From Cyanobacteriota bacterium (GTDB lineage: Bacteria > Acidobacteriota > Vicinamibacteria > Vicinamibacterales > UBA2999), in the NCBI GenBank assembly GCA_019752015.1, contig JAIEMQ010000063.1:1-46385 (forward strand): DNA of 46,385 nt, written 5' to 3'. The translations under genes were made by a program, and so were the position numbers. This document shows positions 1-46,353 of this stretch, one piece after another. Each line of letters begins with the position of its first letter. Position 1 is the first letter of the stretch. The notes beneath the pieces were generated by a model. That model was given only the letters and a program-made list of their open reading frames with translations, did no database searches and was not told the DNA's origin.

Positions 1-72
1 GAGAGATCTCTCTCTCGTGATCCCATCTCGATTCATGCCGAGAGCCGAGCCGCAAACGCGCTTATTTTGGGA

Positions 73-2391
73 CTAGTACCGAATCGTCACTCCGCCAAGC
101 GCGCTGACGCCAGGCATGGGGTTATAAAAGCGTCTCGCCCCATCGTTCACCTGCGGCAGCGACGTGTAGGCTTTGTCGAACAGGTTGTTGATCGTGACGA
201 AGGGCGACACGCGCGCCCGGCTGCCGACACGCCAATCGTAACCGACGGTGGCGGTGGTGACCGTGTAGGGCTCGTTCGTGAACACGTTGGCATCATCCAC
301 GAAGTAGCGGCCCACCGACTTCACGTTGATGCTCGCGTTGGGTCCCCGCGCCGGTTGATATCGCAATTCCGCAAACACGTCGTGACGAGGAATGCCGGCC
401 AGGCGGCGGCCGCTGAGATCCTGGCCGAGCGCATTGAACCGGCTGAAGACGTAGTCGGAGTAGGTATAACTCACGGTTGCGGATAACGGCTTGGTTAGAC
501 GCAGCGAGGTGGCGAATTCGAGCCCCGTTTGTTTGACGGCAGCCGCGTTGAGCGACGCGGTGAAGGTGGTCCCGCCCGCGGGCCGCAGAATCTGCCGCGT
601 GACGATGAAGTCATCGATGTTCTGACGGAACAAGGCCGCTTCGAATGACACCCGCCGGCCGAATTCGCCTTTCACCCCGCCTTCGTAGCTGCGGTAAATC
701 ATCGGATTGAGCCCGACGTTGAGCACGAACTCGCCTTCCGTGAATGGGGAATTACGCAGCTGTTCGCTCACCGGCGCTTCGAGACCTTCACTGACGTTGC
801 CATAGACCGATAGAGCAGGCACCGGCCTGAACACGACGCCAAGCTTCGGCGTGAATCGTTCGAAGGTGCGCGTAAACACCGCGCCCGGCAGGCCGGGGCG
901 CATCAGGTCTTCGAAGCCGAAACTGATGCGGTCGAACCGGCCCCCAAGGTTGAGCAGCAGACGCGAGAACAGCGTCAGTTCGTCCTGGACATACAGGCCG
1001 ACGGTCTGCAAATTCTCCTCGAGAAGCTGCTGTGTGGCGCCCGTGACGCGGCTGAGGATCTCATTGCGCAACGGTGTGTTCTGATAATCGACGCCGAGCG
1101 TCAACCGGTGCTCGAGGCCGGCAAGCGGAGTCATATTCAGATAGCGCACATTCGCGCCGCGGTTGATGAAGAACTGGCCGTTCCGGATCGGACCTGACGT
1201 GGTGGCGTAAATCGGACGCGGCACGTAATAGCCTTTGAACTCGATCTGGTCGCGGCCGAACAGCGGCCTGGTATAGGTCACTCCCGTCCGGAATTCGTCG
1301 ATGCTGCCGCGAATGCCGCCCGTCGATACGAGCGCGGGATTTGGTTGTCGTGGATTGGCGGCGGCCTCGGCGGCCGTCAATGACCCTGGAATGAGCTGTT
1401 CGAGCTTTTCGTAACTGATGATCGTCGTCAGGCTGGCGCCGGAGTCCGTGGTGTAACGCAGTTTGCTGTGAAAGCCGGTCGAGCTGTATTCGGACAGTTC
1501 GCGATAGCCGCCCTGATCGGTCCGAAAAGCGCTGCCGAAGTAACTGAAATTCCCCTTCTGGCCGCTCAGTTTGAAATGCTCCTTGAAGAGGCCGAAGGCC
1601 CCGGCCGTCTGCTGAAACTGCACGAACGGGACGGGCGACCCTTCTTCGGTGATGAAGTTGATGACGCCGCCGGCCTGATTCCCGTACAGGGCCGAGGCTG
1701 GTCCGCGCACCACTTCCACGCGCTGGACCGACGCCAGGTCGACGTTGATGAAGTCCTGCGCCGAGCCGCCGGCATTGTTTTTCGGTACGCCGTCGACCAG
1801 GATTCTGACCCCTCGGGACCCGAACGTGTTCTGCGCGCCGGCGCCTCGGATGCTGGGGACGGCGCGGGTCGATCCGTCGAGGTGCACGCGCATGGCGACG
1901 CCCGGGACGCGCTTGAGGATCTCATTGACATTCGTCATCTGCTGTCCGCGAAGCACTTCCTGCGTGTCGACCACGCTCACCGCCGCCGGGATCTTGCCAA
2001 TCTCCTGATCGGCGCGGGTCCCGGTCACCACCACCGTTTCGAGCATGGCCGTCAGTTCGAGCGTGAAGTCCACGGCGAGCGGCGCCGTCCCAACCTGTAC
2101 CTGGTCGCGCGTGGTCGTGCGAAAGCCGTTCATTTCGGCGCGAACGCTGTAGGTCTGCGGAGCGATGTCTGCGAACCGGTAACGTCCGTCCAGATCACTG
2201 AAGACCGTGCGAACCTGCCGGCCCACGCTGTCGAGCAGCGTCACCGTGGCACCGGGCAAGACCGCGCCTTGCGGGTCACTGACCGTACCGGAGAGGGAGC
2301 CGGACCCTTGCGCGGCTGCCATCGCTCCCGTCGACAGAACGATCAACGTGCACAGAAGCATCGAACGCACACCAACATACCGATCGGTCAT
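73..2391 (-). CDS. TonB-dependent receptor with N-terminal carboxypeptidase-regulatory-like domain
   Basis: An outer-membrane TonB-dependent receptor of 772 residues. It has a signal peptide (hydrophobic run followed by AMAAAQ), then a carboxypeptidase-regulatory-like beta-sandwich (SGTVSDPQGAVLPGATV, about residues 30-110). A plug domain follows (GKIPAAVSVVDTQEVLRGQ to VEVVRGPASALYGNQAGGVI), then a beta-barrel ending in a terminal aromatic strand (GGVTIRY). The plug resembles the siderophore/cobalamin/metal type (IRGxG...LVDGVP) more than the Oar type of the other two receptors here, so it is probably a real importer of an iron, cobalamin or metal complex. The substrate cannot be read from sequence. 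An ATG at 2391 is preferred over the in-frame GTG at 2397 because GAGG lies 7 nt upstream of it. The gene diverges from the M48 protease gene. Confidence 0.9.
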   Translation of the reverse strand: MTDRYVGVRSMLLCTLIVLSTGAMAAAQGSGSLSGTVSDPQGAVLPGATVTLLDSVGRQVRTVFSDLDGRYRFADIAPQTYSVRAEMNGFRTTTRDQVQVGTAPLAVDFTLELTAMLETVVVTGTRADQEIGKIPAAVSVVDTQEVLRGQQMTNVNEILKRVPGVAMRVHLDGSTRAVPSIRGAGAQNTFGSRGVRILVDGVPKNNAGGSAQDFINVDLASVQRVEVVRGPASALYGNQAGGVINFITEEGSPVPFVQFQQTAGAFGLFKEHFKLSGQKGNFSYFGSAFRTDQGGYRELSEYSSTGFHSKLRYTTDSGASLTTIISYEKLEQLIPGSLTAAEAAANPRQPNPALVSTGGIRGSIDEFRTGVTYTRPLFGRDQIEFKGYYVPRPIYATTSGPIRNGQFFINRGANVRYLNMTPLAGLEHRLTLGVDYQNTPLRNEILSRVTGATQQLLEENLQTVGLYVQDELTLFSRLLLNLGGRFDRISFGFEDLMRPGLPGAVFTRTFERFTPKLGVVFRPVPALSVYGNVSEGLEAPVSEQLRNSPFTEGEFVLNVGLNPMIYRSYEGGVKGEFGRRVSFEAALFRQNIDDFIVTRQILRPAGGTTFTASLNAAAVKQTGLEFATSLRLTKPLSATVSYTYSDYVFSRFNALGQDLSGRRLAGIPRHDVFAELRYQPARGPNASINVKSVGRYFVDDANVFTNEPYTVTTATVGYDWRVGSRARVSPFVTINNLFDKAYTSLPQVNDGARRFYNPMPGVSALGGVTIRY

Positions 2392-29890: not shown

Positions 29891-30274
29891 CTAAACGAGA
29901 AGGCTGGCGAGGAAGAGATACGTCGGGGTGCGACGGGGCCGTAACGCTGCGTGTGCGACCTGGGTTAAATCGTGCTGGATTAAAGAGGACGGTATGGCGG
30001 GCAGCAGCGCGAACGGTACGAGGAGAGGATCCGGCGCGGCGAGGGAGACTCCCTTAGATGCGATCAGCCCCTGCGATACACGCGAACTTTTATGGGAGCA
30101 GCAATCCTCGCCCCCCGCCATTGCGCCGCAATCGTGGCCCATCGCCACGCAGCATGCCTTCTGCGCATCAGTCATTTCCGCGCCAGTGACGCAATTCGCA
30201 GACAGGGCGACCGCGAACGCTACAGCGAGCGTCCATGCGATCGACCGAGTCCAGCGAATCATCCACCTACGCAT
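29891..30274 (-). CDS. Cys-rich small secreted protein, paralogue 2 of 3
   Basis: A 127-residue paralogue of the 13208-13594 protein. It has a signal or anchor segment (SIAWTLAVAFAVALSANC), the Cys core ACCVAMGHDCGAMAGGEDCC, and the C-terminal PTYLFLASLLV. ATG 30274 lies directly after the same type of promoter as its paralogues. The 3' flank (about 29855-29890) also resembles the 3' flank of paralogue 1 (GCAAGCTGA then AAAGAAAAG-like sequence), which supports a duplication that included non-coding DNA. Function unknown; the metal-resistance context suggests a soft-metal or thiol role. Confidence 0.7.
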   Translation of the reverse strand: MRRWMIRWTRSIAWTLAVAFAVALSANCVTGAEMTDAQKACCVAMGHDCGAMAGGEDCCSHKSSRVSQGLIASKGVSLAAPDPLLVPFALLPAIPSSLIQHDLTQVAHAALRPRRTPTYLFLASLLV

Positions 30275-30283
30275 CGAATTCTC

Positions 30284-30312
30284 ATTGTTGCGCGCAGCGT
30301 AATGCATGTCAA
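30284..30312 (-). promoter_or_regulatory. Putative sigma-70 promoter of Cys-rich paralogue 2
   Basis: On the minus strand TTGACA (30312-30307) and AACAAT (30289-30284) are separated by 17 nt. It is preceded by CTGT, as in paralogue 3, and followed by GAGAATTCG and the ATG at 30274. The predicted transcript leader is only a few bases. Confidence 0.5.
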
Positions 30313-30832: not shown

Positions 30833-30868
30833 CGACTTGTTCACTCGCCGGCTTCGACAACGACCACG

Positions 30869-31243
30869 TCAATCCAGATCTTCAGCCAGGAAGGCAGTGT
30901 TGATCGCGAAGGCGGCGCCCGCCCCTTCTGCTGCCGCGATAATTGTAAGCTGCGCCGCACGCGAGGCGTCTCCGGCCACGTACAGGCCAGGAATATTCGT
31001 GGCTTCATATTTCCCGGTCCGGATGGCACCCTTGCGGGTGAAGTGACACCCAAGCTTGGCTGGTAGATTGGAGTGCTGTCGTTGACCGGTGGTGAAGAAC
31101 AGAGCCCGGCGCGGAAGGGCGGCGCCGGTTTTGAACACGACCCGTTCGAGTATGCCGTTCGATCCATCAAGACGGGCGATCGGTTCCTCTCGCAGGGGAA
31201 TGCCGTGCCTGGCGAGCCGTTTCAGGTTGTCGCGCGAACAACC
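30869..31243 (-). pseudogene. Thioredoxin-reductase-like flavoprotein, C-terminal remnant
   Basis: About 124 codons without a start: DNLKRLARHGIPLREEPIAR, then GAALPRRALFFTTGQRQHS, LGCHFTRKGAIRTGKYEATN and the conserved FAD-binding IPGLYVAGDASRAAQLTI plus AAAEGAGAAFAINTAFLAED. This is the C-terminal third of a TrxB-like pyridine nucleotide oxidoreductase. The N-terminal FAD motif and the redox Cys pair are missing, and an in-frame TAA stands just upstream at about 31252. Truncated and probably not functional. Confidence 0.75.
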
Positions 31244-31339
31244 TTAGGCGTTCTCAATCCGCTGCCTCGCTTTTCCGGTCATCTGTGCAACGTAGGGTGG
31301 GAAGGCTCGGTGCTCGTCGGACGAGATTTCGTACGCACT

Positions 31340-31474
31340 TCAGGATCTGTTCGAGCCGTCACCGGGTTTCTCAGCGCTCTTTGGGCTTCCGTACTTTCGC
31401 ATGTGAGAAGCCACGGGGAGCACGACGCAGCAAGCAACCATCAGTCCCACAAGCAGCGCAAGTGAAAGGTTCAT
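31340..31474 (-). CDS. Small single-helix membrane protein with Cys-Cys-Pro helix
   Basis: A 44-residue frame: helix LSLALLVGLMVACCVVLPV, then a basic tail (ASHMRKYGSPKSAEKPG). GGAGG lies 7 nt before ATG 31474. The CC...P pattern near the end of the helix and the polar tail match the proteins at 13684-13806 and 32346-32513, so it is likely a third, more distant family member. Function unknown. Confidence 0.55.
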   Translation of the reverse strand: MNLSLALLVGLMVACCVVLPVASHMRKYGSPKSAEKPGDGSNRS

Positions 31475-32244
31475 AGGCAAGCCTCCATTCGGTTGCTACC
31501 CGATGAAACGACCGCCACCACCGTAAGTGATCGCGGCCGGGTTGGGCGGCAGTGCCTATCCTTTCGGCGGCGGATCCTCACGGATGCCGCGCGCGACCGC
31601 CCGTGAAGACGAAGCGTCCCCCAACGCGTCACACTCCCGATGTCCTCCATGCGCCACCAGGCGCCATTCCGACGGGACGCCGTACGTTCTTCTTCACCAC
31701 GGTATCCGGCAATCTGCCCTACCGAACCGACCTCGATCTGCCCCACCGATCCGCGCCGGATCGCCTTTCCAGACACACCGTCCGTGATCCGAACCCTGGT
31801 GAGCCCTGGCACCGCCCACCCGACATCGCGAGCATCGCCGGTCGGGTCGCGCTTACGGATACGTCTCCGCACGCTGAGCGTGGCCAGCCCGACCTCGCTT
31901 TGCGCGTAGCCTTGCACCCACAATGGAAACCACCGCTTGGACTGCGCCAACAACCGCTGGATGGTACGCGGATGCACCGCGTCAAAGGTCGAGATGAAGA
32001 AGCGGACGTTGGAGAGAGGCCCCCTCGCGTCGTTGGCGAACTGTTCCCACCGGATGTATAGGTTGGGGAATGTATCAACCACAGTCGGCCGATAGCGGCT
32101 CAGAAATGTCGCCGTCGTCGCGGGGTCGGTGTCGAAGAGAGCCAGATGGGCACAGCCGACCGCCAGAAGGGCGTGCCAGCCCGACAGCACCCGCGCGTGG
32201 ACTGCTGTCGGACACGTGGCGAACACATCGCGACGAGTCAACAT
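31471..32244 (-). pseudogene. AMP-dependent synthetase/ligase fragment
   Basis: Residues 1-216 of this frame resemble the central part of an ANL-superfamily adenylating enzyme: LFDTDPATTATFLSRYRPTV, TFPNLYIRWEQFA, FISTFDAVHPRTIQRLL, GYAQSEVG in place of the usual YG.TE motif, GWAVPGLTRVRI and WWRMEDIGSVTRWG. The N-terminal third (with the P-loop-like TSGTTG) and the C-terminal domain with the catalytic Lys are absent. From about 31596 to 31471 the frame no longer matches. It is a remnant, flanked on both sides by small membrane protein genes. Confidence 0.7.
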
Positions 32245-36914: not shown

Positions 36915-39900
36915 CTACGCGACCGCGTGTTTCAACTCCCGCTCCCTCCAAATCTCATAGATGACCGGATACACGAGCAGTTCCATGATGAAAGAGGTGA
37001 AAATGCCGCCCAGCATGGGCGCGGCAATCCGCTTCATGACGTCCGCGCCCGCGCCGTCGGACCACATGATGGGCGTCAACGCGAGGAACAGCACGACCAC
37101 CATCATCACTTTCGGTCTCAGACGCTTGGCAGCGCCGTGCATGATCGCCTCGCGCAGATCCGCGCGCGTGCGCAGTTGCCCCTTGGCCTGTGCTTCATCA
37201 CGCGCGAGGTCGAGATAGAGCAGCATGAAGACACCTGTTTCGGCGTCCACGCCAAGCAGCGCAATCAGACCGACCCAGACGGCGATGCTGATGTTGTATC
37301 CCAGCGCCCAGATGAAGAGGATCGCGCCTACCGCGGAGAAGGGCACCGCGAGCAGGATGATCGACGTCTTCACCATGGATCCGGTGTTGAAGTAGATCAG
37401 CAGGCAGACGATCACGAGTGTCACCGGCACGACAACCTTCAGCCGTTCGCGCACCCTGAGCATGTACTCGTACTGCCCGCTCCACTGCAGCTGATAGCCG
37501 GCGGGCAGCGTAACCCTCTCAGACACCACCCGGCGCGCGTCCTCGACATAACTCCCCAGATCGCGGCCCGTCACGTCGACATAGAGGAACCCGGCCAGGA
37601 ACCCTTCCTCGTTCTTGATCATCGGCGGGCCCGTGCGCATCGTGATGGTCGCGAGCTGCTCGAGCGACACCTGCGCGCCACTCTCCGTAGGTACCAGCAC
37701 GCGTCGAAGATTCGAGAGATCGTCGCGAAGCTCGCGCGCGTACCGCACGTTGACCGGGTAACGTTCACGCCCCTCAACGGTGGTGGTGACGGTGTTGCCT
37801 CCGATTGCGGACTCGAGGATGTCCTGGACGTTGCCCACCGAGAGGCCATAGCGCGCCGCTTCCAGCCGGTTGACCTCGAAGTCGATGTAATAGCCACCGG
37901 TGACGCGCTCGAAGAACGCGCTGCGTGTGCCGGCGACGTCCTTCATGACACGTTCGAGCTCCAACCCGATCTGCTCGATCGTGGCGAGATCCGGTCCGAG
38001 AACCTTTACTCCGACCGGCGTTCTGACGCCGGTCGTAATCATGTCGATGCGGGTACGGATCGGAAAGAGCCACGCGTTCGCGAACGCGGGAAGTTGCACG
38101 GCTCTATCCATCTCGTCGATCAGGGCTTCCCACCCGATCTTCCGCGCTTCGGGCCAGAGGAAACGGAATGGCGCCTTCATGAACTCCGGCACGGACCAGG
38201 AGGAGTAGAAGCGCGATCGTGTGACCGTCCGCCACTCTTCTTCTGGTTTGAGGACCACAGTCGTTTCGACCATGCTGAATGGAGCGGGATCGGTCGATGA
38301 TTCGGTCTTGCCGATCTTGCCGAAGACGGTCGACACTTCGGGCACCTGTTTGATGAGCCGGTCCTGGATCTGAAGATATTTGGTGGCCTCGGTGACCGAA
38401 ATCCCCGGCAACGTAATGGGCATGTACAGAATCGTGCCCTCGTTCAGCGGCGGCATGAATTCACTGCCCAGGCTCATATAGACCGGCACGGTGAGCCCAA
38501 CGATCGCCACCGCGGCGGCGATCACCAGCCAACGCAGGCGCAACATGAGCCGTAACACAGGGGTGTAAATCCGCATCAGCGTGCGGTTGAGCCAGCTGTG
38601 CTCCTCTTGTTCGATCCTGACGAAGAATGTGTTGAGCGTCCGTGCCAGCACGCGCGGACGGAAATCGAAATCTTTCACCCGTGTGAACAGGAGCAACATC
38701 ACCGGACCGAGTGTGATTGCGAGAACCGCCGCAATCGCCATCGACGCATTCTTGGTGAATGCGAGCGGTTTGAAGAGACGTCCTTCTTGAGCCTCGAGCG
38801 CAAAGATGGGGAGGAACGAAACCGCAATGACCAGCAGCGAGAAGAAACTCGGCCCTCCAACTTCCTTGACGGCATCCACAATCACGCGCGTCGGATCGCC
38901 CACGCGACCCTCCGCAACCCAGTGCTCCAGCTTCTTGTGCGTTTGCTCGACGACGATGATCGCGGCGTCCACCATGGCGCCGATGGCGATGGCGATGCCG
39001 CCGAGACTCATGATGTTCGACGTCAGACCGCTGTAATACACCGGGATGAAGGAAATGATGATCGCGATGGGAATCGTGGTGATCGGAACCATGGCACTCG
39101 GTACGTGCCGCAGGAAGATCAAGATCACGACACTGACAATGATCAGTTCTTCGATGAGCGTACCGGTGAGCGTCTCGATCGACCGGTGAATCAGATCGGA
39201 GCGGTCGTAGGTGGTCACCACTTCGACGCCCTCGGGAAACGAGCCTTTTACTTCCTCGAACTTCGCCTTGACACGGTCGATGACATCGAGCGCGTTCTCG
39301 CCGAAGCGCACCACCACGATGCCGCCGGTGACTTCCCCCTCGCCGTTCAGCTCGGTGACGCCGCGGCGCATTTCCGGGCCAAGCTGCACGTCGGCCACCT
39401 GCCGCAGCAGGATCGGCGTGCCGTTTTCGTCGCTGCCGAGGGCGACGTTCTCGAGATCCGCTGTGGATTTGATGTAGCCGCGGCCGCGGACCAAGTACTC
39501 CTTTCCGGTAAACTCCACGACACGTCCGCCCACCTCGTTGTTGCTCATCCGCACCATCTCGATGACGCGGTTGAGCGGCACGTTGAGGGCGTTCAATCGA
39601 TTGGGGTCGACGCTGATTTGGTATTGCTTGACGAAGCCACCAATGACTGCCACTTCGGCGACGCCGGGAACACTCTCCAGCCAGTAGCGGACGTACCAGT
39701 CGTTGAAGGATCGAAGTTCCGCGAGGTTGTACCGTCCGGTGCGATCGACCAGCGCGTATTGGTATGCCCAGCCGACGCCGGTGGCATCGGGGCCCAGTCG
39801 CGGCGCAACACCCTCGGGCAGTTTGCCCTGGAACTTGCTCATGTACTCAAGGACACGACTGCGGCCCCAGTAAATGTCGGTGCCCTCGTCGAACACGATG

Positions 39901-40181
39901 TAGACGTAAGAAAACCCGTAATCCGAAAGGCCGCGCACCACCGAAACGTTGGGCGCGGCGAGCATCGCCGAAACGATCGGATACGTAATCTGGGCCTCCA
40001 CCAGATCCGGACTGCGGCCAGGCCACTCGGTATAGATGATGACCTGAGGGTCCGACAGATCGGGAATCGCGTCGAGCGGCACGTTGCGCATCGCATAGAG
40101 CCCGCCGGCCACCGCGAACCCGGTGAACAACAGCACGAGGAACTTGTGCGACGCGCTGAACTCGATGATGCGATTGATCAC
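36915..40181 (-). CDS. cusA: RND heavy-metal efflux pump, CusA/CzcA family
   Basis: A 1088-residue inner-membrane RND transporter. Landmarks are an N-terminal helix followed by VPLDAIPDLSDPQVIIYTEW, the TM4 motif GGIAIAIGAMVDAAIIVVEQ with the proton-relay Asp, and the second-half membrane helices (GLIALLGVDAETGVFMLLYL). FSMVETTVVLKPEEEW, RTRIDMITTGVRTPVGVKV and PPMIKNEEG contain Met residues in the periplasmic region, where CusA uses Met ligands for Cu+/Ag+. The lack of the CzcA-type DFG motif and the Met placement favour monovalent copper/silver, but I could not align residue by residue. It starts 3 nt after the cusB stop. Confidence 0.9.
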   Translation of the reverse strand: MINRIIEFSASHKFLVLLFTGFAVAGGLYAMRNVPLDAIPDLSDPQVIIYTEWPGRSPDLVEAQITYPIVSAMLAAPNVSVVRGLSDYGFSYVYIVFDEGTDIYWGRSRVLEYMSKFQGKLPEGVAPRLGPDATGVGWAYQYALVDRTGRYNLAELRSFNDWYVRYWLESVPGVAEVAVIGGFVKQYQISVDPNRLNALNVPLNRVIEMVRMSNNEVGGRVVEFTGKEYLVRGRGYIKSTADLENVALGSDENGTPILLRQVADVQLGPEMRRGVTELNGEGEVTGGIVVVRFGENALDVIDRVKAKFEEVKGSFPEGVEVVTTYDRSDLIHRSIETLTGTLIEELIIVSVVILIFLRHVPSAMVPITTIPIAIIISFIPVYYSGLTSNIMSLGGIAIAIGAMVDAAIIVVEQTHKKLEHWVAEGRVGDPTRVIVDAVKEVGGPSFFSLLVIAVSFLPIFALEAQEGRLFKPLAFTKNASMAIAAVLAITLGPVMLLLFTRVKDFDFRPRVLARTLNTFFVRIEQEEHSWLNRTLMRIYTPVLRLMLRLRWLVIAAAVAIVGLTVPVYMSLGSEFMPPLNEGTILYMPITLPGISVTEATKYLQIQDRLIKQVPEVSTVFGKIGKTESSTDPAPFSMVETTVVLKPEEEWRTVTRSRFYSSWSVPEFMKAPFRFLWPEARKIGWEALIDEMDRAVQLPAFANAWLFPIRTRIDMITTGVRTPVGVKVLGPDLATIEQIGLELERVMKDVAGTRSAFFERVTGGYYIDFEVNRLEAARYGLSVGNVQDILESAIGGNTVTTTVEGRERYPVNVRYARELRDDLSNLRRVLVPTESGAQVSLEQLATITMRTGPPMIKNEEGFLAGFLYVDVTGRDLGSYVEDARRVVSERVTLPAGYQLQWSGQYEYMLRVRERLKVVVPVTLVIVCLLIYFNTGSMVKTSIILLAVPFSAVGAILFIWALGYNISIAVWVGLIALLGVDAETGVFMLLYLDLARDEAQAKGQLRTRADLREAIMHGAAKRLRPKVMMVVVLFLALTPIMWSDGAGADVMKRIAAPMLGGIFTSFIMELLVYPVIYEIWRERELKHAVA

Positions 40182-40184
40182 GCG

Positions 40185-41828
40185 CTACCTCGCCGTCACG
40201 TTCGTCCGAGACACACCGATCACCTGTCCGCCTTTGCGCACGGTGACTGTCGTCTCCCACGTCCACGCCATTGGTATCTCGATCTCGCCCGTGTACTCTC
40301 CAGATCCCGCTGGAAACAGACCGGCCTTCGCCTCCATCGGCGCCATTGCTCCCATCTGCGGCATGAACAACTTCACCTCGACCTCCGCGTCTTGTATGGG
40401 CGCACCAGAGGGATCGAGGACGCGAACGCGAAGCCGGTTCTTCCCGACCTTGGCCGGCGAAGGTTCCGTCGTCACGTCGACCTTCAGCGCGGGCCCGGTT
40501 GGGGCCTGTTGCGCCGGCGCCTGTGACGGTTTTCCCATCGCCGCGAACGCGCCCCGCAGCCGGCTTTCCGCGTCGATGAGAAAATTCGCCGCGGTGACGA
40601 CACGCTCACCGGGTTTCAGTCCACTGTTCACGACACGGTCGTTCTCGACTTCGGCACCGACTTGCACTTGCCGGGGCTCGAAATAGCCGTCACCAACGTC
40701 GACGAACACGTACTGGCGCTCGCCCGTGTCCATCACCGCTTCCGCGGGAACGACAATGCGAGTGCCGAGATCGACCTGGAGCACCAGGTTGTAGAAGGCA
40801 TCTGGTTTGAGCAGGCCGCCACGATTAGGGAATTCGAGACGGATCTCGCCCGTACGAGTCTGCGGATTCACGAACGGCGAGATGAACGTCACGCGACCGG
40901 ACATCGGCTCGAGACTTGTCCCGTACGGGAACTCGAGACGCGCCTGATGGCCGACACGGATAAACGGCAGTTCGGCTTCGAACACCTGGCCGAGCAGCCA
41001 CACGGACGACAGGTCGACAATGGTGTAGATCTGGTCTTCCGGCGTGATGCGCTGGCCAGCTTGATAGGCGCCGCGCTCCTTGACCACGCCGGTCGCGGGC
41101 GAGTACACCGTTGCCGTGCGCGACACCTGCCCGGTGCGCTCGATCTGTTCGATATGCGAGGGCGGGAGGTCCCACAGCAGCAGACGCCGGCGTGCCGCAT
41201 CCGCGAGGAGATTACCGCCTTCACGAGCGTGCGCGAACGAACTATCGCCCAGTTCACGCTGCGCCCGCAGCGCGAGCAGATACTCCTGCTGGCTGGCAAC
41301 GAGTTCGGGACTGTAGATGGTAAAGAGCGGTTGTCCCTGCTTCACCGGCTCGCCGACAAAGTTGACGAACACCTGTTCGATCCAACCCGAAATCTTCGTG
41401 TGGACTCGGGAGATTCTGCGCTCATCAATCGCGACGCGCGCGACACTCCGAATCTCTTTCGCGACAGGACGCTGTGTGACCTCAGTGATCTTGACGCCGA
41501 TCGTCTGCTGCCGTTCCGGCGGAACGAAGAAGGTCTGCGGCGCGCCGTTACCGCTCGCGGCGCCGGTCACGGGGTTCGGCGCCGACGGATGGTCAGCCGC
41601 CTGGGTCGACGCGTTGCCCGGCGGCGCGGATCCAGCCCGGTCGCCGCTCATACCTGGCATGCCGGGCATGGCTTGCTCCATGCCCTCTGACTTGCCTTGG
41701 GCGGAGGACGCTCGCCCGCGTAAGTACATGACGACCGCCACGACCGCCACCGCAATAGTCAGAATCGCCGCGAAGAGGATGACGCGCCGGCGCCGATTTG
41801 CCATGATCATGTGCGTGGGCCCCGTCAT
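40185..41828 (-). CDS. cusB: RND efflux periplasmic adaptor, CusB family, with extra C-terminal domain
   Basis: A 547-residue membrane fusion protein. An N-terminal membrane helix (VILFAAILTIAVAVVAVVMY) precedes a Met-rich stretch (GMEQAMPGMPGMSGDRAG) like the metal-binding N-terminus of CusB. The adaptor core shows VRSVARVAIDERRISRVHTK, GWIEQVFVNFVGEPVKQGQP and the hairpin PELVASQQEYLLALRAQREL. Beyond the core (after about residue 430) a beta-sandwich domain of about 100 residues follows (LRVRVLDPSGAPIQDAEVEV ... WTWETTVTVRKGG), resembling FixH/YtkA. ATG overlaps the cusC stop by 4 nt. Confidence 0.88.
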   Translation of the reverse strand: MTGPTHMIMANRRRRVILFAAILTIAVAVVAVVMYLRGRASSAQGKSEGMEQAMPGMPGMSGDRAGSAPPGNASTQAADHPSAPNPVTGAASGNGAPQTFFVPPERQQTIGVKITEVTQRPVAKEIRSVARVAIDERRISRVHTKISGWIEQVFVNFVGEPVKQGQPLFTIYSPELVASQQEYLLALRAQRELGDSSFAHAREGGNLLADAARRRLLLWDLPPSHIEQIERTGQVSRTATVYSPATGVVKERGAYQAGQRITPEDQIYTIVDLSSVWLLGQVFEAELPFIRVGHQARLEFPYGTSLEPMSGRVTFISPFVNPQTRTGEIRLEFPNRGGLLKPDAFYNLVLQVDLGTRIVVPAEAVMDTGERQYVFVDVGDGYFEPRQVQVGAEVENDRVVNSGLKPGERVVTAANFLIDAESRLRGAFAAMGKPSQAPAQQAPTGPALKVDVTTEPSPAKVGKNRLRVRVLDPSGAPIQDAEVEVKLFMPQMGAMAPMEAKAGLFPAGSGEYTGEIEIPMAWTWETTVTVRKGGQVIGVSRTNVTAR

Positions 41829-43171
41829 TGCAGGAGATCGAGCCCGGTCAATGCCTCGAGACGTGCGAGCGCACGCAAGTACTCGACCACGTAATCGATG
41901 TGCGCGAGCTCGTGATCGCGCAGCCGAATCCAGCTCGTCAGCGTCGTCAAGAAATCGATTCTGCCGACTTGATACGTCGACATTGCCGATTCAAGTGCCA
42001 GACGCGCCTGTTTCAGGATCGCTTCGTCGTACAGCCGCAGGATCTCTCGTGCGGAGCTGGCCGCCGCGTAGGCCTGATCGACTTGAGAGACGACCTCGAG
42101 ACGTCGCGCGTCGATCGCCGCCTGCGCGCCGCGCAGCGAGGCTTCCGCTTCCTCGATGGCCTTCCGCTGCTTTCTGGCGGCGTAGAGCGGGACGCGCAGC
42201 GTGCCGCCGAACGTCCAATACGGATCGAGTCCCCCACGGTTGTGGTACACGAAGCTGGCGCCGAAATCCGGCTTGAGCTCCCGCCTGGCGAGTTGCACGG
42301 CGAACTCGCCGCGCGACCCTTCGCGTGCGGCCACGGCAATCTCCGGATGCGTATCCAAGGCCCGCTGGCGCAGATCCTCGAGCGGCGGCAGCTCCTTCGG
42401 ACCCGCGACCGGAGCGAGCGTGCCCGCACTCCACTGCACGGGCTGTCGCGCAATGCTCCGAAGACTCGCCTCGGACGTGCGCACACGCCGTCGCAGGATC
42501 GAAAGCCTCTCTTCGATGCGAGACACTTCGACTTCAGCGTCCAGGACGTCCTGCTGCGGCGCCTCACCAACCGAAAGCCGGACGGCGGCCGTCCGTTCGA
42601 GCAGGTCCAAGGTGCGGCGATTGCGTTCGAGAATCGCTGTCATCGCCTGGACGCCAAATATCTCCAGGTAGGTTTCCTTGACCGCGGCGACGAGCTCGCG
42701 AATGCGGGTATCGCGCCGCAGGCGTTCAACTTCCACGTCCTCCTGCGCCACGCGCTCGCGCAGACCGCGTTTTCCCGGATAAGGAATCTCCTGCGTCACC
42801 CCGACATACACTTCGCTGAACCCGTTCTTTCCGAGGGTTTGAAACGGAACGGGCCCACCTTCATTCAGCACGCCGTATTCGAACATCGGGTCCGGCAGCG
42901 CGCCGGCTTGCGGCACGCGCGCACGTGCCGCGAAGACGCGTTGCTCGAGCGCCGCCAGGTCCGGGTTCCGCTCCAGGACATCTGCAATCAGGCTGGACAG
43001 TCCGGCCGGTCCTTGCGCGCGTTGGGCCGGAACAATGACCGCCGCTCTGTCCGGATCAGCCGGCGGCGTTTGTGGTGTCGGTCGCTGCGCTGCAGGGCCC
43101 TCGGCGGCGGCGTGCGGCCCCGCGAAGATCATCAACGTAAAAAATGCAAATGAACTGGCTGCGATACTCAT
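41825..43171 (-). CDS. cusC: Outer-membrane efflux protein, CusC/TolC family
   Basis: A 448-residue outer-membrane factor. A signal peptide (SFAFFTLMIFAGPHAAAEG) is followed by two TolC-type repeats: LIADVLERNPDLAALEQRVF with GALPDPMFEYG in the first half, and LRQRALDTHPEIAVAAREG with RRELKPDFGASFVYHN in the second, both with long coiled-coil helices. With CusB and CusA it would form a tripartite metal efflux system spanning both membranes. ATG 43171 is preferred because the signal peptide starts there, with GGGAAACGG upstream; an upstream in-frame start (43249) is less likely. Confidence 0.87.
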   Translation of the reverse strand: MSIAASSFAFFTLMIFAGPHAAAEGPAAQRPTPQTPPADPDRAAVIVPAQRAQGPAGLSSLIADVLERNPDLAALEQRVFAARARVPQAGALPDPMFEYGVLNEGGPVPFQTLGKNGFSEVYVGVTQEIPYPGKRGLRERVAQEDVEVERLRRDTRIRELVAAVKETYLEIFGVQAMTAILERNRRTLDLLERTAAVRLSVGEAPQQDVLDAEVEVSRIEERLSILRRRVRTSEASLRSIARQPVQWSAGTLAPVAGPKELPPLEDLRQRALDTHPEIAVAAREGSRGEFAVQLARRELKPDFGASFVYHNRGGLDPYWTFGGTLRVPLYAARKQRKAIEEAEASLRGAQAAIDARRLEVVSQVDQAYAAASSAREILRLYDEAILKQARLALESAMSTYQVGRIDFLTTLTSWIRLRDHELAHIDYVVEYLRALARLEALTGLDLLQ

Positions 43172-43295
43172 GATCCGTTTCCCAGGTTGATCTCGGCGAC
43201 ACCCGTGTGTCGACAGTTCGCCGTCACGCGACAGCGCCGCAGTTAGCACTGGACGTGCCGTCGCGCACGCGAAGGTGACCCATCTCGCGCCTGTG

Positions 43296-43340: not shown

Positions 43341-43706
43341 CTAGATCAGGAAGGCAGAGCCGAGCAGATATGAGGGGACGTACGCGTAGGCCAGCGAAAC
43401 GCGAGTAGCTCTTCGATTCCGGAGCGGAAACGAGGGCGGCGCCGCAGCCATCACAACCGGCGCGATGTCAGCCGTCGGAATCAGAATTTTAACGGACGTC
43501 AGTTGGGGCGTCGCGTCATTGTCGGGCGTGCAGCAGTCGTGCTCCGCGCCCATCGACTCGCAGGTGTCCGCCATCGACGCGCAGCAGGCGTGCTCCGCGG
43601 CGGTCATCTCTTCACCGACCAGACACTCGGCAGACAACACGACTGCCAGCGCGAGGACGAGAACCCCCGCAACTGGTCGCGTCAACTGTCGGATCCGCCG
43701 CATCAT
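43341..43706 (-). CDS. Cys-rich small secreted protein, paralogue 3 of 3
   Basis: A 121-residue member of the same family as 13208-13594 and 29891-30274: signal or anchor segment (VAGVLVLALAVVLSAECLVG), core ACCASMADTCESMGAEHDCC and C-terminal YVPSYLLGSAFLI. Paired cysteines and one His of the core are conserved. The start is placed at 43706 (MMRRIRQ...) because the ATG at 43718 lies inside the predicted -10 element; the transcript would then be nearly leaderless. It is the first minus-strand gene of the cus group and diverges from the mer-like operon, placing the family firmly in a soft-metal context. Confidence 0.68.
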   Translation of the reverse strand: MMRRIRQLTRPVAGVLVLALAVVLSAECLVGEEMTAAEHACCASMADTCESMGAEHDCCTPDNDATPQLTSVKILIPTADIAPVVMAAAPPSFPLRNRRATRVSLAYAYVPSYLLGSAFLI

Positions 43707-43716
43707 GGCCGTGATC

Positions 43717-43745
43717 ATTGTCGCGCCGCAGACAGTCGGTGTCAA
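43717..43745 (-). promoter_or_regulatory. Putative sigma-70 promoter of Cys-rich paralogue 3
   Basis: On the minus strand TTGACA (43745-43740) and GACAAT (43722-43717) are separated by 17 nt, preceded by CTGT as in paralogue 2. Transcription would start around 43710, just before the ATG at 43706. Confidence 0.5.
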
Positions 43746-43815: not shown

Positions 43816-43847
43816 TTGACTCTGGAGTGCGCTCCAGGGTGCATAGT
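43816..43847 (+). promoter_or_regulatory. MerR-family operator/promoter (ZntR-like, 20-bp spacer)
   Basis: TTGACT (43816-43821) and CATAGT (43842-43847) are separated by 20 nt instead of 17. The spacer holds a dyad CTGGAG-TGCG-CTCCAG at 43822-43837. Over-long spacers with a central dyad are diagnostic of promoters that MerR-type regulators activate by DNA distortion. The sequence is strikingly close to my memory of the E. coli zntA promoter. The next gene starts at 43855, so the mRNA would have almost no leader. Confidence 0.75.
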
Positions 43848-43854
43848 GTAGCTG

Positions 43855-44337
43855 ATGGCGGATTGCTGCGACTCTCCAAACCGTGTGGTGACTGGCGCCC
43901 AGAACACGTGCCCGCATTGCGGCGCAAAAGGCGCCAGGGTCGAACTCACCACGGTCAAGGCGTTGCTCACAGAACTGGCGCTCCGGCAGTTCGAGCCGGG
44001 GCCGCACTCCTTCTGCCCCGGCGCGACGTGTTCGGTCGTGTACTTTGCGGCCGATGGGCAGGTCTACACGACGACGGACGTTCGGGTGCCCGTGTGGCAG
44101 AAGCAGCCGGCGGGCGCGCGCAGAATCTGTTATTGCTTCGACGAGAACGAGGCGTCGATGGCACGCGAGGTGGTCGAGACAGGCCGGTGTGGCGCCGTCC
44201 AACGCGTCCGAGACCATATCGCGGCGGGCCGCTGCGCCTGCGAGGTGCGAAACCCCCGCGGCACCTGCTGCCTGGGCGAGGTCATGAAGGCCGTCGCGCG
44301 AGTGGAATCCGAATGCTCGTCGGAGGTTGAGAAGTAG
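43855..44337 (+). CDS. CopZ-like [2Fe-2S]/zinc metal-binding protein
   Basis: A 160-residue cytoplasmic Cys-rich protein. The N-terminus has CC and a CPHC zinc-type pair (DCCDSPNRVV ... NTCPHCGAKG). A middle part (FCPGATCSVVYFAADGQVY) and RRICYCFDENEASMAREVVE match the N-terminal domains of the CopZ copper chaperone of Archaeoglobus. The last part (RCACEVRNPRGTCCLGEVMK) is a BFD-like [2Fe-2S] segment. The HMA domain of full CopZ is absent, but an HMA protein (MerP-like) is encoded three genes on. It probably receives or reduces a soft metal ion in the cytoplasm. No ribosome-binding site is evident, fitting a leaderless start. Confidence 0.82.
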   Translation: MADCCDSPNRVVTGAQNTCPHCGAKGARVELTTVKALLTELALRQFEPGPHSFCPGATCSVVYFAADGQVYTTTDVRVPVWQKQPAGARRICYCFDENEASMAREVVETGRCGAVQRVRDHIAAGRCACEVRNPRGTCCLGEVMKAVARVESECSSEVEK

Positions 44338-44339
44338 CA

Positions 44340-44759
44340 ATGGCGAACGGCTATCGAATCAGTCAAGTCGCACAACAGGCAGGTGTCACGCCCGACGCGA
44401 TCCGCTATTACGAGCGGCTCGGCGTGTTGCCACGCCCGCCGCGCACGGCCGGGGGACTGCGGTCGTACGGGGACGACGTGCTGCCACGGGTGCGCTTCAT
44501 TCAACAGGCCCAGGCGCTGGGTTTGACGTTGAAGGATGTGAGGGAGCTCGTCGCGAATGAAGGCCGCGCGGGGCATCAGCGGTGCGGTCGCGTGCGGGAT
44601 CTCCTGAGGACGCGCCTCGCCGACGTCGATGCGCGGATCAGAGAGATGCACGCATTTCGCCGCACGCTTCGCGGCCACCTGAATGCGTGCGAACGCGCAT
44701 TGGAGCAGGACGCGCCGGTCTGCCCCGTGATGGTCCGGTTGGGAGGGCGCAGTCGATGA
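44340..44759 (+). CDS. merR: MerR family metal-responsive regulator
   Basis: A 139-residue regulator. The helix-turn-helix and wing are YRISQVAQQAGVTPDAIRYY and ERLGVLPRPPRTAGGLRSYG, followed by RVRFIQQAQALGLTLKDVRE and a dimer helix. Cys residues at the positions used by soft-metal sensors are visible (HQRCGRVRDLL, LNACERALEQDAPVCPVM), a Cys pattern close to MerR/ZntR. It lies 2 nt after the CopZ-like gene inside the operon, so it would be autoregulated from the 43816 promoter. The metal could be Hg, Zn, Cd or Pb; MerT/MerP favour Hg. Confidence 0.85.
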   Translation: MANGYRISQVAQQAGVTPDAIRYYERLGVLPRPPRTAGGLRSYGDDVLPRVRFIQQAQALGLTLKDVRELVANEGRAGHQRCGRVRDLLRTRLADVDARIREMHAFRRTLRGHLNACERALEQDAPVCPVMVRLGGRSR

Positions 44760-45070
44760 AGACGGCTCTCGCTGCCGTCATGGCGGCCGGCGTCGCATCG
44801 GCGTGTTGCATCGGACCGGTGGCGTTCGTGCTTCTCGGCGTCGGCGCGTTCGGGACCTCTCTCGCGGCACTGGAACCGTACCGGCCGGTCTTCCTCGGCA
44901 TGACAGCGGTGCTGCTTGGCGGCGCGTTTTACGTCGCCTACCGCCCGACGTCCGACTGCGACGCGTGCGCGCCGGCATTGCGGCGGCGTACGCGGATCGC
45001 CGTCTGGATTGCGACGGTGGTCGCTGTTGCACTTGTCACATTTCCCTCCTACGTTGGCTATCTGTTCTGA
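44756..45070 (+). CDS. merT: MerT-like mercuric ion transporter
   Basis: A 104-residue inner-membrane protein with three helices. The first has the Cys-Cys pair (ASACCIGPVAFVLLGVGAFG), then LAALEPYRPVFLGMTAVLLG, a cytoplasmic loop with two more Cys (SDCDACAPALRRR), and a last helix ending FPSYVGYLF. This is the MerT pattern: Hg2+ moves from the first Cys pair to the loop pair. GGGAGG lies about 9 nt before ATG 44756, which overlaps the merR stop by 4 nt. Confidence 0.87.
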   Translation: MKTALAAVMAAGVASACCIGPVAFVLLGVGAFGTSLAALEPYRPVFLGMTAVLLGGAFYVAYRPTSDCDACAPALRRRTRIAVWIATVVAVALVTFPSYVGYLF

Positions 45071-45080
45071 AGGAGGACGT

Positions 45081-45401
45081 ATGCGAAAGGTGTTGGTGCT
45101 CGTTACCGCGATTGCGTTCGGCGGCGTCGCGACAGTAACGGCTACGCGCGTGCACACGACCCAGGCCAAGCCGGCCGAAGCGACGAAAGTCTTCACCATG
45201 AAGGTGACGGGGATGACCTGCTCCGGCTGTGAAGCGGCAGTAGAGATCGCGGCGAAACAGATTGACGGCGTGAAAGACGCGAAGGCGAGCTACGCGAAAG
45301 GGACGGCGGAGGTCACCTACGATCCGGCGAAGACGGCCCCAGACGCAATCGCCAAGACGATCGCGCAGAAGACTGGCTACAAGACGGAAGTGGTGAAGTA
45401 G
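45081..45401 (+). CDS. merP: MerP-like periplasmic heavy-metal-binding protein
   Basis: A 106-residue protein. A signal segment (KVLVLVTAIAFGGVATVTAT) is followed by an HMA domain with VTGMTCSGCEAAVEIAAKQI (metal-binding GMTCxxC), VKDAKASYAKGTAEVTYDP and a conserved KTGYKTEVVK end. It would hand Hg2+ or another soft metal to MerT. AGGAGG is 4 nt upstream of ATG 45081. In classical operons merA follows; here only remains of it do. Confidence 0.88.
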   Translation: MRKVLVLVTAIAFGGVATVTATRVHTTQAKPAEATKVFTMKVTGMTCSGCEAAVEIAAKQIDGVKDAKASYAKGTAEVTYDPAKTAPDAIAKTIAQKTGYKTEVVK

Positions 45402-45455
45402 AACGCCGTCTGCGCGCGTTGACGGCGCAGGAACTGAAGAAGACTGCCCTGATGA

Positions 45456-45690
45456 CGGAGGAAGGGGCCCGTCGGCGGCAGGTGCGTCAACCGCGGGTGT
45501 CTGCCGTCCAAGAATCTCATCGCCGCAGTGAAGCTGCTGCACGACGCGCAACATCCTCGGTTCCCGGCCTGACGGCGTGCACGATCGGTCGCGATTTCGC
45601 CGCCCTGATTGCGCAGAAAACCGGCCTCGTCCACGCCTATCGCAAGCAGAAATACGAGAGGCTGATCGGCGGCGGAATCAGGCTCGAGTC
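45456..45690 (+). pseudogene. merA: merA (mercuric reductase) remnant
   Basis: A frame at 45456-45569 reads [20 protein letters not shown] followed by [13 protein letters not shown] and a stop. The CVNRGC redox pair and LPSKN are the active-site signature of MerA and related disulfide oxidoreductases. In another frame from about 45560 the sequence continues [20 protein letters not shown] then GLVHAYRKQKYERLI, which matches the MerA segment just after the redox motif. The N-terminal FAD region and the entire C-terminal two-thirds are absent. The remaining sequence between 45402 and 45807 holds nothing else I recognise. Confidence 0.75.
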
Positions 45691-45807: not shown

Positions 45808-46353
45808 ATGATCAGATCCTGGCCGGCCCCCGTGTGGGGTTCGTATTCGAAAGTTGTGTCGCCCACCATCGATCAAGAGCTCAGGGCCCGCGGAGTGGCG
45901 CAAGTGATCGCCGTGTTGGCGCCGAATGCCGCTGCCGGTGGGACGAGAGACGATGCGCGGGCGCGGCGAGTCGAGTCGCATTTCCGCTCGTCGGAGCGCT
46001 CCATCGCCAGCGCGCTCCGCGAAGACAGTGGCATGCGAAGCCCCGCCACGGATGCGCCGCCTGCGGAATCGCCGGCGATCACGTTTCCGAACCTTGGCGT
46101 GGTCCTGGGGACCGCCGATGCGGAAGGCATCGCGGCCCTGCAAGCCAGCGACGACGTGACGGCGATTTGCGGGACGCCGCCGATCAGTCTGATCAAACCT
46201 GAACGGAGGGCCCCGGCACCCTTGGACGCAACCACTACCTGGGGTCTCGAATTTCTGGGTGTCAAACGGCTCTGGGACCAGGGACTCACAGGTGAAGGTG
46301 TAAGAGTTGTAGGCCTGATCCGATTCAGTGGACGGTTTAGTTACGCTGTTTGA
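45808..46353 (+). pseudogene. Subtilisin-like (S8) serine protease, prodomain part only, truncated
   Basis: ATG 45808 with GAGGG 7 nt upstream opens a frame that reads as a prodomain (YSKVVSPTIDQELRARGVAQ, HFRSSERSIASALR, LGTADAEGIAALQASDDV) and then TTWGLEFLGVKRLWDQGLTG and EGVRV. That is the region just before the catalytic Asp (normally G.GVRVGHLDTG). At about 46309 the match stops abruptly and a short unrelated tail ends at 46353. The Asp, His and Ser of the triad are all lost. The break coincides with what looks like an insertion-sequence end. Confidence 0.65.

Follow-up and report, generated by a model that had tools for sequence, protein, structure and literature searches.

A mer-type cassette that has lost its reductase but shows signs of being kept

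Main finding

The window, a stretch of 46,385 nucleotides that is the whole of contig C41 in the draft genome of an uncultured-type acidobacterium (5.9 Mb, 82 contigs, estimated completeness 100%), holds a mer-type cassette that lacks a reductase and bears signs of being kept. Several routes of merA loss occur in its lineage. The copZ-like, merR, merT and merP genes of the cassette are intact and tightly packed, as an earlier note on this DNA had described them; the largest overlap or gap between neighbours is no more than 10 bases. We give about an even chance to the reading that the set, under MerR control, takes up a soft divalent metal (most likely Hg(II)) and hands it over, and that it is still kept despite the loss of its reductase. 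In such a cassette, MerP would bind the metal in the periplasm, MerT would carry it inward, and the CopZ-like protein, via cysteine sites of the Zn and [2Fe-2S] type, would accept it in the cytoplasm instead of MerA and then store it or hand it to thiols or to a P-type ATPase of the genome; MerR would turn the cassette on in the presence of the metal. Storage, thiol exchange, ATPase export and reduction at the cluster are possible fates of the bound metal.

Import of a metal without a sink, for example by MerT and MerP without MerA, should harm the cell by making it hypersensitive to Hg. Since reductase-less mercury transporters are expected to be harmful, their survival under selection would, if true, mean that MerA does not serve as the cytoplasmic sink in every case. 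With a CopZ-like acceptor, there would be a route of mercury sequestration that is overlooked when merA alone marks mercury handling. Reductase-free cassettes of this kind also occur in a number of related bacteria.

The four kept genes and their promoter

The first gene (43855–44337, forward strand) encodes a CopZ-like metallochaperone of 160 amino acids that scores 124.7 bits against the curated family NF047645 (cut-off 100). Its sole Pfam domain is PF18423 (zf_CopZ), over the Pfam cut-off and without an HMA tail, and A. fulgidus CopZ-NT (2hu9) matches it with an E-value of 1.4e-8 and with the cysteine pairs aligned. Judged by its family, the protein would be of the N-terminal CopZ type, with predicted Zn and [2Fe-2S] sites.

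The second gene, merR (44340–44759, forward), encodes a MerR-family metal sensor with PF13411 and PF09278 over the Pfam cut-offs. Its best solved relative is 4ua1 (E-value 1.8e-18), which we take to be the MerR of B. megaterium, and Cys82, Cys117 and Cys128, located by counting, align with cysteines of both 4ua1 and 5crl; these positions are presumably those of the Hg ligands. A lone Cys117, without the second Cys and the His of ZntR, favours Hg, Pb or Cd over Zn. The product stays under every NCBIfam equivalog cut-off, including that of the Hg-MerR model (97.7 versus 150.85).

The product of merT (44756–45070, forward) belongs to the inner-membrane Hg transporter family (PF02411, 72.9 bits, cut-off 32.9), carries a CC pair and a DCDAC loop, and is the sole PF02411 match in the genome. 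It is followed by a merP-like gene (45081–45401, forward) for an HMA protein (PF00403, 57.9 bits) with the motif GMTCSGC and an N-terminus that is hydrophobic by eye; its TIGR02052 score is 42.1 bits, under the cut-off of 92.55. By Pfam cut-offs (PF02411 and HMA) the two proteins form a MerT–MerP transport pair, with both under their NCBIfam equivalog cut-offs.

A single MerR-type operator-promoter, read from the sequence (43816–43847, forward), leads these four genes. It has a -35 box TTGACT, a -10-like CATAGT and the dyad CTGGAG-TGCG-CTCCAG, which at 43822–43837 is a perfect 6+6 repeat inside a 20-base spacer. A dyad within a 19–20 base spacer is the defining spacing of MerR-family promoters. 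The earlier note had set the start of the operon at 43816; this is the -35 box of the promoter and no part of copZ. An operator of the form TTGAC..GGAG..CTCC lies 5' of copZ in 13 of the 21 CopZ loci found in the order, the window counted, and a search for the exact pattern gave one occurrence in the window genome. The 26-base operator core TTGACTCTGGAGTGCGCTCCAGGGTG is identical in the window, L092, L148 and L154, although the window differs from L092 and L148 by a synonymous divergence of 0.8–1.2. The fifth base of the window's -10 departs from the NATACT shared by eight relatives and occurs in none of these eight.

These features bear on the idea that the operon has switched to a different metal, be it Cd, Pb, Zn or Cu, leaving merA useless, which we regard as improbable. 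The ZntR model scores slightly higher than the MerR model (99.6 versus 97.7 bits in NCBIfam, both under cut-off), the loop from Cys117 to Cys128 is longer than that of Hg MerR, a CusA-family RND efflux set lies divergently next door, and the operator resembles the ZntR/zntA type. However, the closest regulator with a solved structure is a MerR in which all three cysteines align, and MerT has kept its Cys pairs. Moreover, L091, the one genome of the order with an intact copZ-merR-merT-merP-merA set, shares the long loop and a near-identical operator, so neither feature marks a switch of metal.

The merA remnant

The claim that merA is destroyed was borne out: what is left is a remnant of 88 codons (45416–45688, forward; MerA codons ~20–110; TIGR02053 and tblastn) with two frame changes, the first ~20 codons and everything beyond codon ~110 being gone. 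It consists of the pieces 45416–45463, 45474–45566 and 45566–45688, in frames A, B and A. The two pieces reported earlier are real, but the first piece, which shares its frame with the last, had been missed. TIGR02053 matches 45459–45593 (E-value 5.4e-8, with one stop inside), and the N-terminal half of the MerA of G471, a genome of the same family, matches 45416–45688 by tblastn (E-value 2.2e-17); tblastn with three MerAs found no further pieces in the whole window. A functional MerA is found neither at the locus nor, over the cut-off, in the draft genome.

The earlier suggestion that merA exists elsewhere did not hold, as none of the eight TIGR02053 matches in the genome exceeds the curated cut-off. 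The two long matches, judged by eye from their open reading frames, look like dihydrolipoamide dehydrogenases adjoining E2-like genes. The remaining short matches were judged by score alone. The stretch at 30841–31170 was rejected as MerA, being thioredoxin reductase-like by eye and without a Pfam match. It is also very improbable that an intact merA is present and escaped notice, lying in an assembly gap or collapsed in the assembly. The draft consists of 82 contigs, that of the window stops 697 bases 3' of the remnant, and the same-clade MerA of G471 sits on a separate contig with a frame break of its own; yet the completeness estimate is full, the remnant is internal to the contig, which continues past it, and sister loci have differing merA remnants at the same place. 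An assembly error at merA itself, which the earlier note wished to see excluded, is unlikely because a comparison of orthologous operons found other merA remnants in three of four sister loci and none in the fourth. Between the remnant and the contig end, an open reading frame (45808–46353, forward) is by eye similar to the N-terminal part of a subtilisin-like protease, has no Pfam match, and has its stop 32 bases before the contig end.

Replacement reductases were considered as well. A disulfide reductase adjoins the copZ set in G102, G162, G245 and G335 and lies ~6 kb off in G173, and there is none beside the window operon; the candidates scanned (L074 and L104) gave glutathione reductase as their top score and stayed under the MerA cut-off.

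Sister loci

A CopZ match was found in 18 of 162 genomes of the order, at 21 places. In a CopZ tree, which left out L159 and other short fragments, the 18 order-level rows form one group (93/95, open fork), in which the window, L095, L148, L154 and L092 make up a well-supported set (100/99). No member of this set has an intact merA beside its operon. The leftovers comprise MerA codons 102–142 and 248–359 in L092, codons 3–35 in L095 (E-value 8e-6) and codons 449–478, inverted, in L148 (E-value 6e-5); in L154, no merA leftover, merR, merT or merP was found within 3.2 kb 3' of copZ. The leftovers differ among the sisters, and the loss of merA here is therefore real and came about through different deletions. 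Broken merA genes also occur in L146 and L160. In L151, an intact merA lies on the opposite strand (4623, reverse) behind a copy of the copZ operator of its own; the two units may be parts of a single regulon.

The solitary copZ of L154 (3645–4141) stands behind the same operator and is divergent from a CusA homologue; from this locus, CopZ may function without MerT and MerP.

A mobile origin found no support: there was no DNA match in plasmids, and the MerP-like protein has matches in 2708 plasmid records, with identities below 60% throughout and always less than 80% of the protein covered. No viral relative of MerT was found.

Constraint after the loss of merA

The relative rates of change of the window and its sister copies were compared against outgroups, codon by codon, by the Nei–Gojobori method. 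The short merA remnant, measured against its sole MerA sister, that of G471, has an excess dN of 0.127 [0.061, 0.216] and 0.149 [0.080, 0.236] with two outgroups (repeat bootstrap [0.041, 0.220] and [0.071, 0.234]). In the same comparison, three functional MerA lineages gave differences of 0.003–0.030 (intervals from -0.060 to 0.114). The four kept genes, pooled over 462–496 codons in six sister/outgroup pairs, gave -0.034 to +0.017, with a top 95% bound of 0.054, but their sisters lack merA too, so that drift common to all would stay hidden. Single-gene tests have wide intervals, copZ alone reaching up to 0.073 [-0.001, 0.154]. For the merA piece of L092, the excess was 0.081 [-0.027, 0.184] and 0.150 [0.044, 0.272]; as it was seen with one of the two outgroups, the result for the window is repeated in part only.

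The four kept genes contain no stops or frameshifts. Under simulated neutrality with d = 0.13–0.15, 4.9–5.4 stops are expected in them and the probability of none is 0.0085–0.0035 (2000 runs), rising to 0.0875 at d = 0.06 and 0.29 at d = 0.03. The two frame changes both fall within the remnant (probability 0.023 by length alone). In these sequence comparisons, the window copy bears signs of constraint after the death of merA.

The rival to be taken most seriously here is slow decay, in which merA was lost first, the other four genes are to follow, and their intactness reflects youth; we hold this to be a real possibility, though a doubtful one. The earlier note had offered a dying operon and a new acceptor side by side, and the evidence splits between them. 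Decay is visible in other copies of the order: copZ has a nonsense codon in L092, the start of merP is shifted in L095, merR is cut in L151, merT is cut in L146 and shifted in L147, and L160 is mostly fragments, although part of the breaks in these draft copies may be sequencing errors. The operon is patchy, with a CopZ gene in one of the nine genomes of the genus searched, and of 12 positions that do not vary across 20 MerA rows the remnant is changed at one, a weak test in which functional rows are changed at 0–2. Because 11 of the 12 are still kept, merA may have died recently. A dying operon fits less well with four genes that, pooled, have no excess change, stop or frameshift beside a remnant whose excess is measurable, or with the conserved operator core and the dN/dS of 0.06–0.29 between the merA-less sisters L092 and L095. 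The constraint on the window copy and the frequency of merA-less copZ–merT sets in the phylum sample speak for a new acceptor.

The pattern in the phylum

Among 396 genomes sampled from the phylum, CopZ occurs in 40 and MerT in 54. Thirty-five of the 40 CopZ genomes were examined, G044, G068, G139, G164 and G180 being left out for weak or partial hits, and loci with MerT alone were sampled in part. With HMMs built for this analysis, merT lies within 3 kb of copZ at 31 loci in 28 of the 35 genomes. Four of these 31 loci have a MerA over the cut-off no more than 6.5 kb away, and six of the 28 genomes have one somewhere in their sequence, leaving 22 without; many of these genomes are drafts, and some are incomplete.

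CopZ, MerT-like and HMA regions occur in one chain of 479–495 amino acids in G141, G147 and G188, the MerT part with 16–23 bits and the HMA part with 21–23 bits, both under the Pfam cut-offs. These one-chain fusions (L073, 6200–7687; L081, 6373–7860; L071, 2860–4299) lie in genomes without a MerA over the cut-off, two of which are among the 22 MerA-less copZ–merT genomes. They resemble the cassette in compact form, and are the best hint that CopZ may act directly with the transporter. The fusion in L073 also has a DF-family part.

An open reading frame resembling a P-type ATPase, with the DKTGT motif, is present in 7 of 31 merA-less loci (L071, L075, L081, L092, L095, L103 and L110), a list that includes order-level loci and differs in part from the 31 copZ–merT loci; in a minority of cases the path may therefore end in export. 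The window contig has no P-type ATPase match, and seven heavy-metal P-type ATPases over the cut-off lie on other contigs of the genome. No other recurring partner stood out around the merA-less sets in a rough clustering that lumped HMA proteins and whose small clusters mostly seem to be shadow frames.

A more tentative extension, which we think unlikely, is that MerR, MerT, MerP and CopZ are a self-standing metal system of Acidobacteriota apart from mercury reduction, that the [2Fe-2S] CopZ-like acceptor might reduce or lock up Hg(II), and that merA can be gained and shed again, with the window in mid-course.

Relation to known systems

The window shares with the canonical mer operon (merR-merT-merP-merA) a MerR regulator, MerT, a MerP-like HMA protein, a MerR-type promoter and, as a remnant, merA after merP, but differs in that merA is dead and a CopZ-like gene comes first. 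Its merR is second and co-directional, whereas the commoner place, in the portion of PMC3466566 available, is divergent. The CopZ-like protein shares with the N-terminal domain of A. fulgidus CopZ (2hu9, NF047645) a putative Zn-binding domain and, by alignment, a [2Fe-2S]-type cysteine pattern, and differs in lacking the C-terminal HMA (copper) domain and in its mer-type operon setting. NF045683 (MerT/CopZ fusion-like heavy metal transport selenoprotein), close to the window set as MerTP is, joins MerT with a CopZ-type part in its name; in the window the proteins are separate and score 51.2 and 37.4 bits, far under the cut-off of 375.

The nearest working analogue found is a set of engineered Hg accumulators (PMC6215804, seen in excerpt), in which import by MerT/MerP is likewise combined with a cytoplasmic binder that replaces the reductase. 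Those are man-made with a plant metallothionein as the binder, whereas the window cassette is natural and has its own MerR and promoter. The excerpted PMC3466566 tabulates neighbours around merA, so that merA-less sets go uncounted there. The sections available of PMC8261052 discuss MerB without MerA and list seven Acidobacteria with MerA, and a search of them by term gave no passage on MerT/MerP without MerA; those of PMC7967564 deal with MerT in plants. Among open-access papers in PMC, none on a merA-less copZ-mer operon was found by title or abstract start.

Other features of the contig

Divergent from the operon lies an RND efflux set of the CusA/CzcA family (36915–43249, reverse), with CusA over the cut-off, a CusB-like adaptor and an outer membrane efflux protein. 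Between this set and the operon is a small Cys-rich open reading frame (43341–43745, reverse); similar ones were seen by eye at 29891–30307 (reverse) in the window and at 1–288 (reverse) in L095. The stretch 30841–32244 (reverse) contains a truncated thioredoxin-reductase-like piece and an open reading frame with just the C-terminal half of an AMP-binding enzyme, perhaps another patch of gene remains on this contig.
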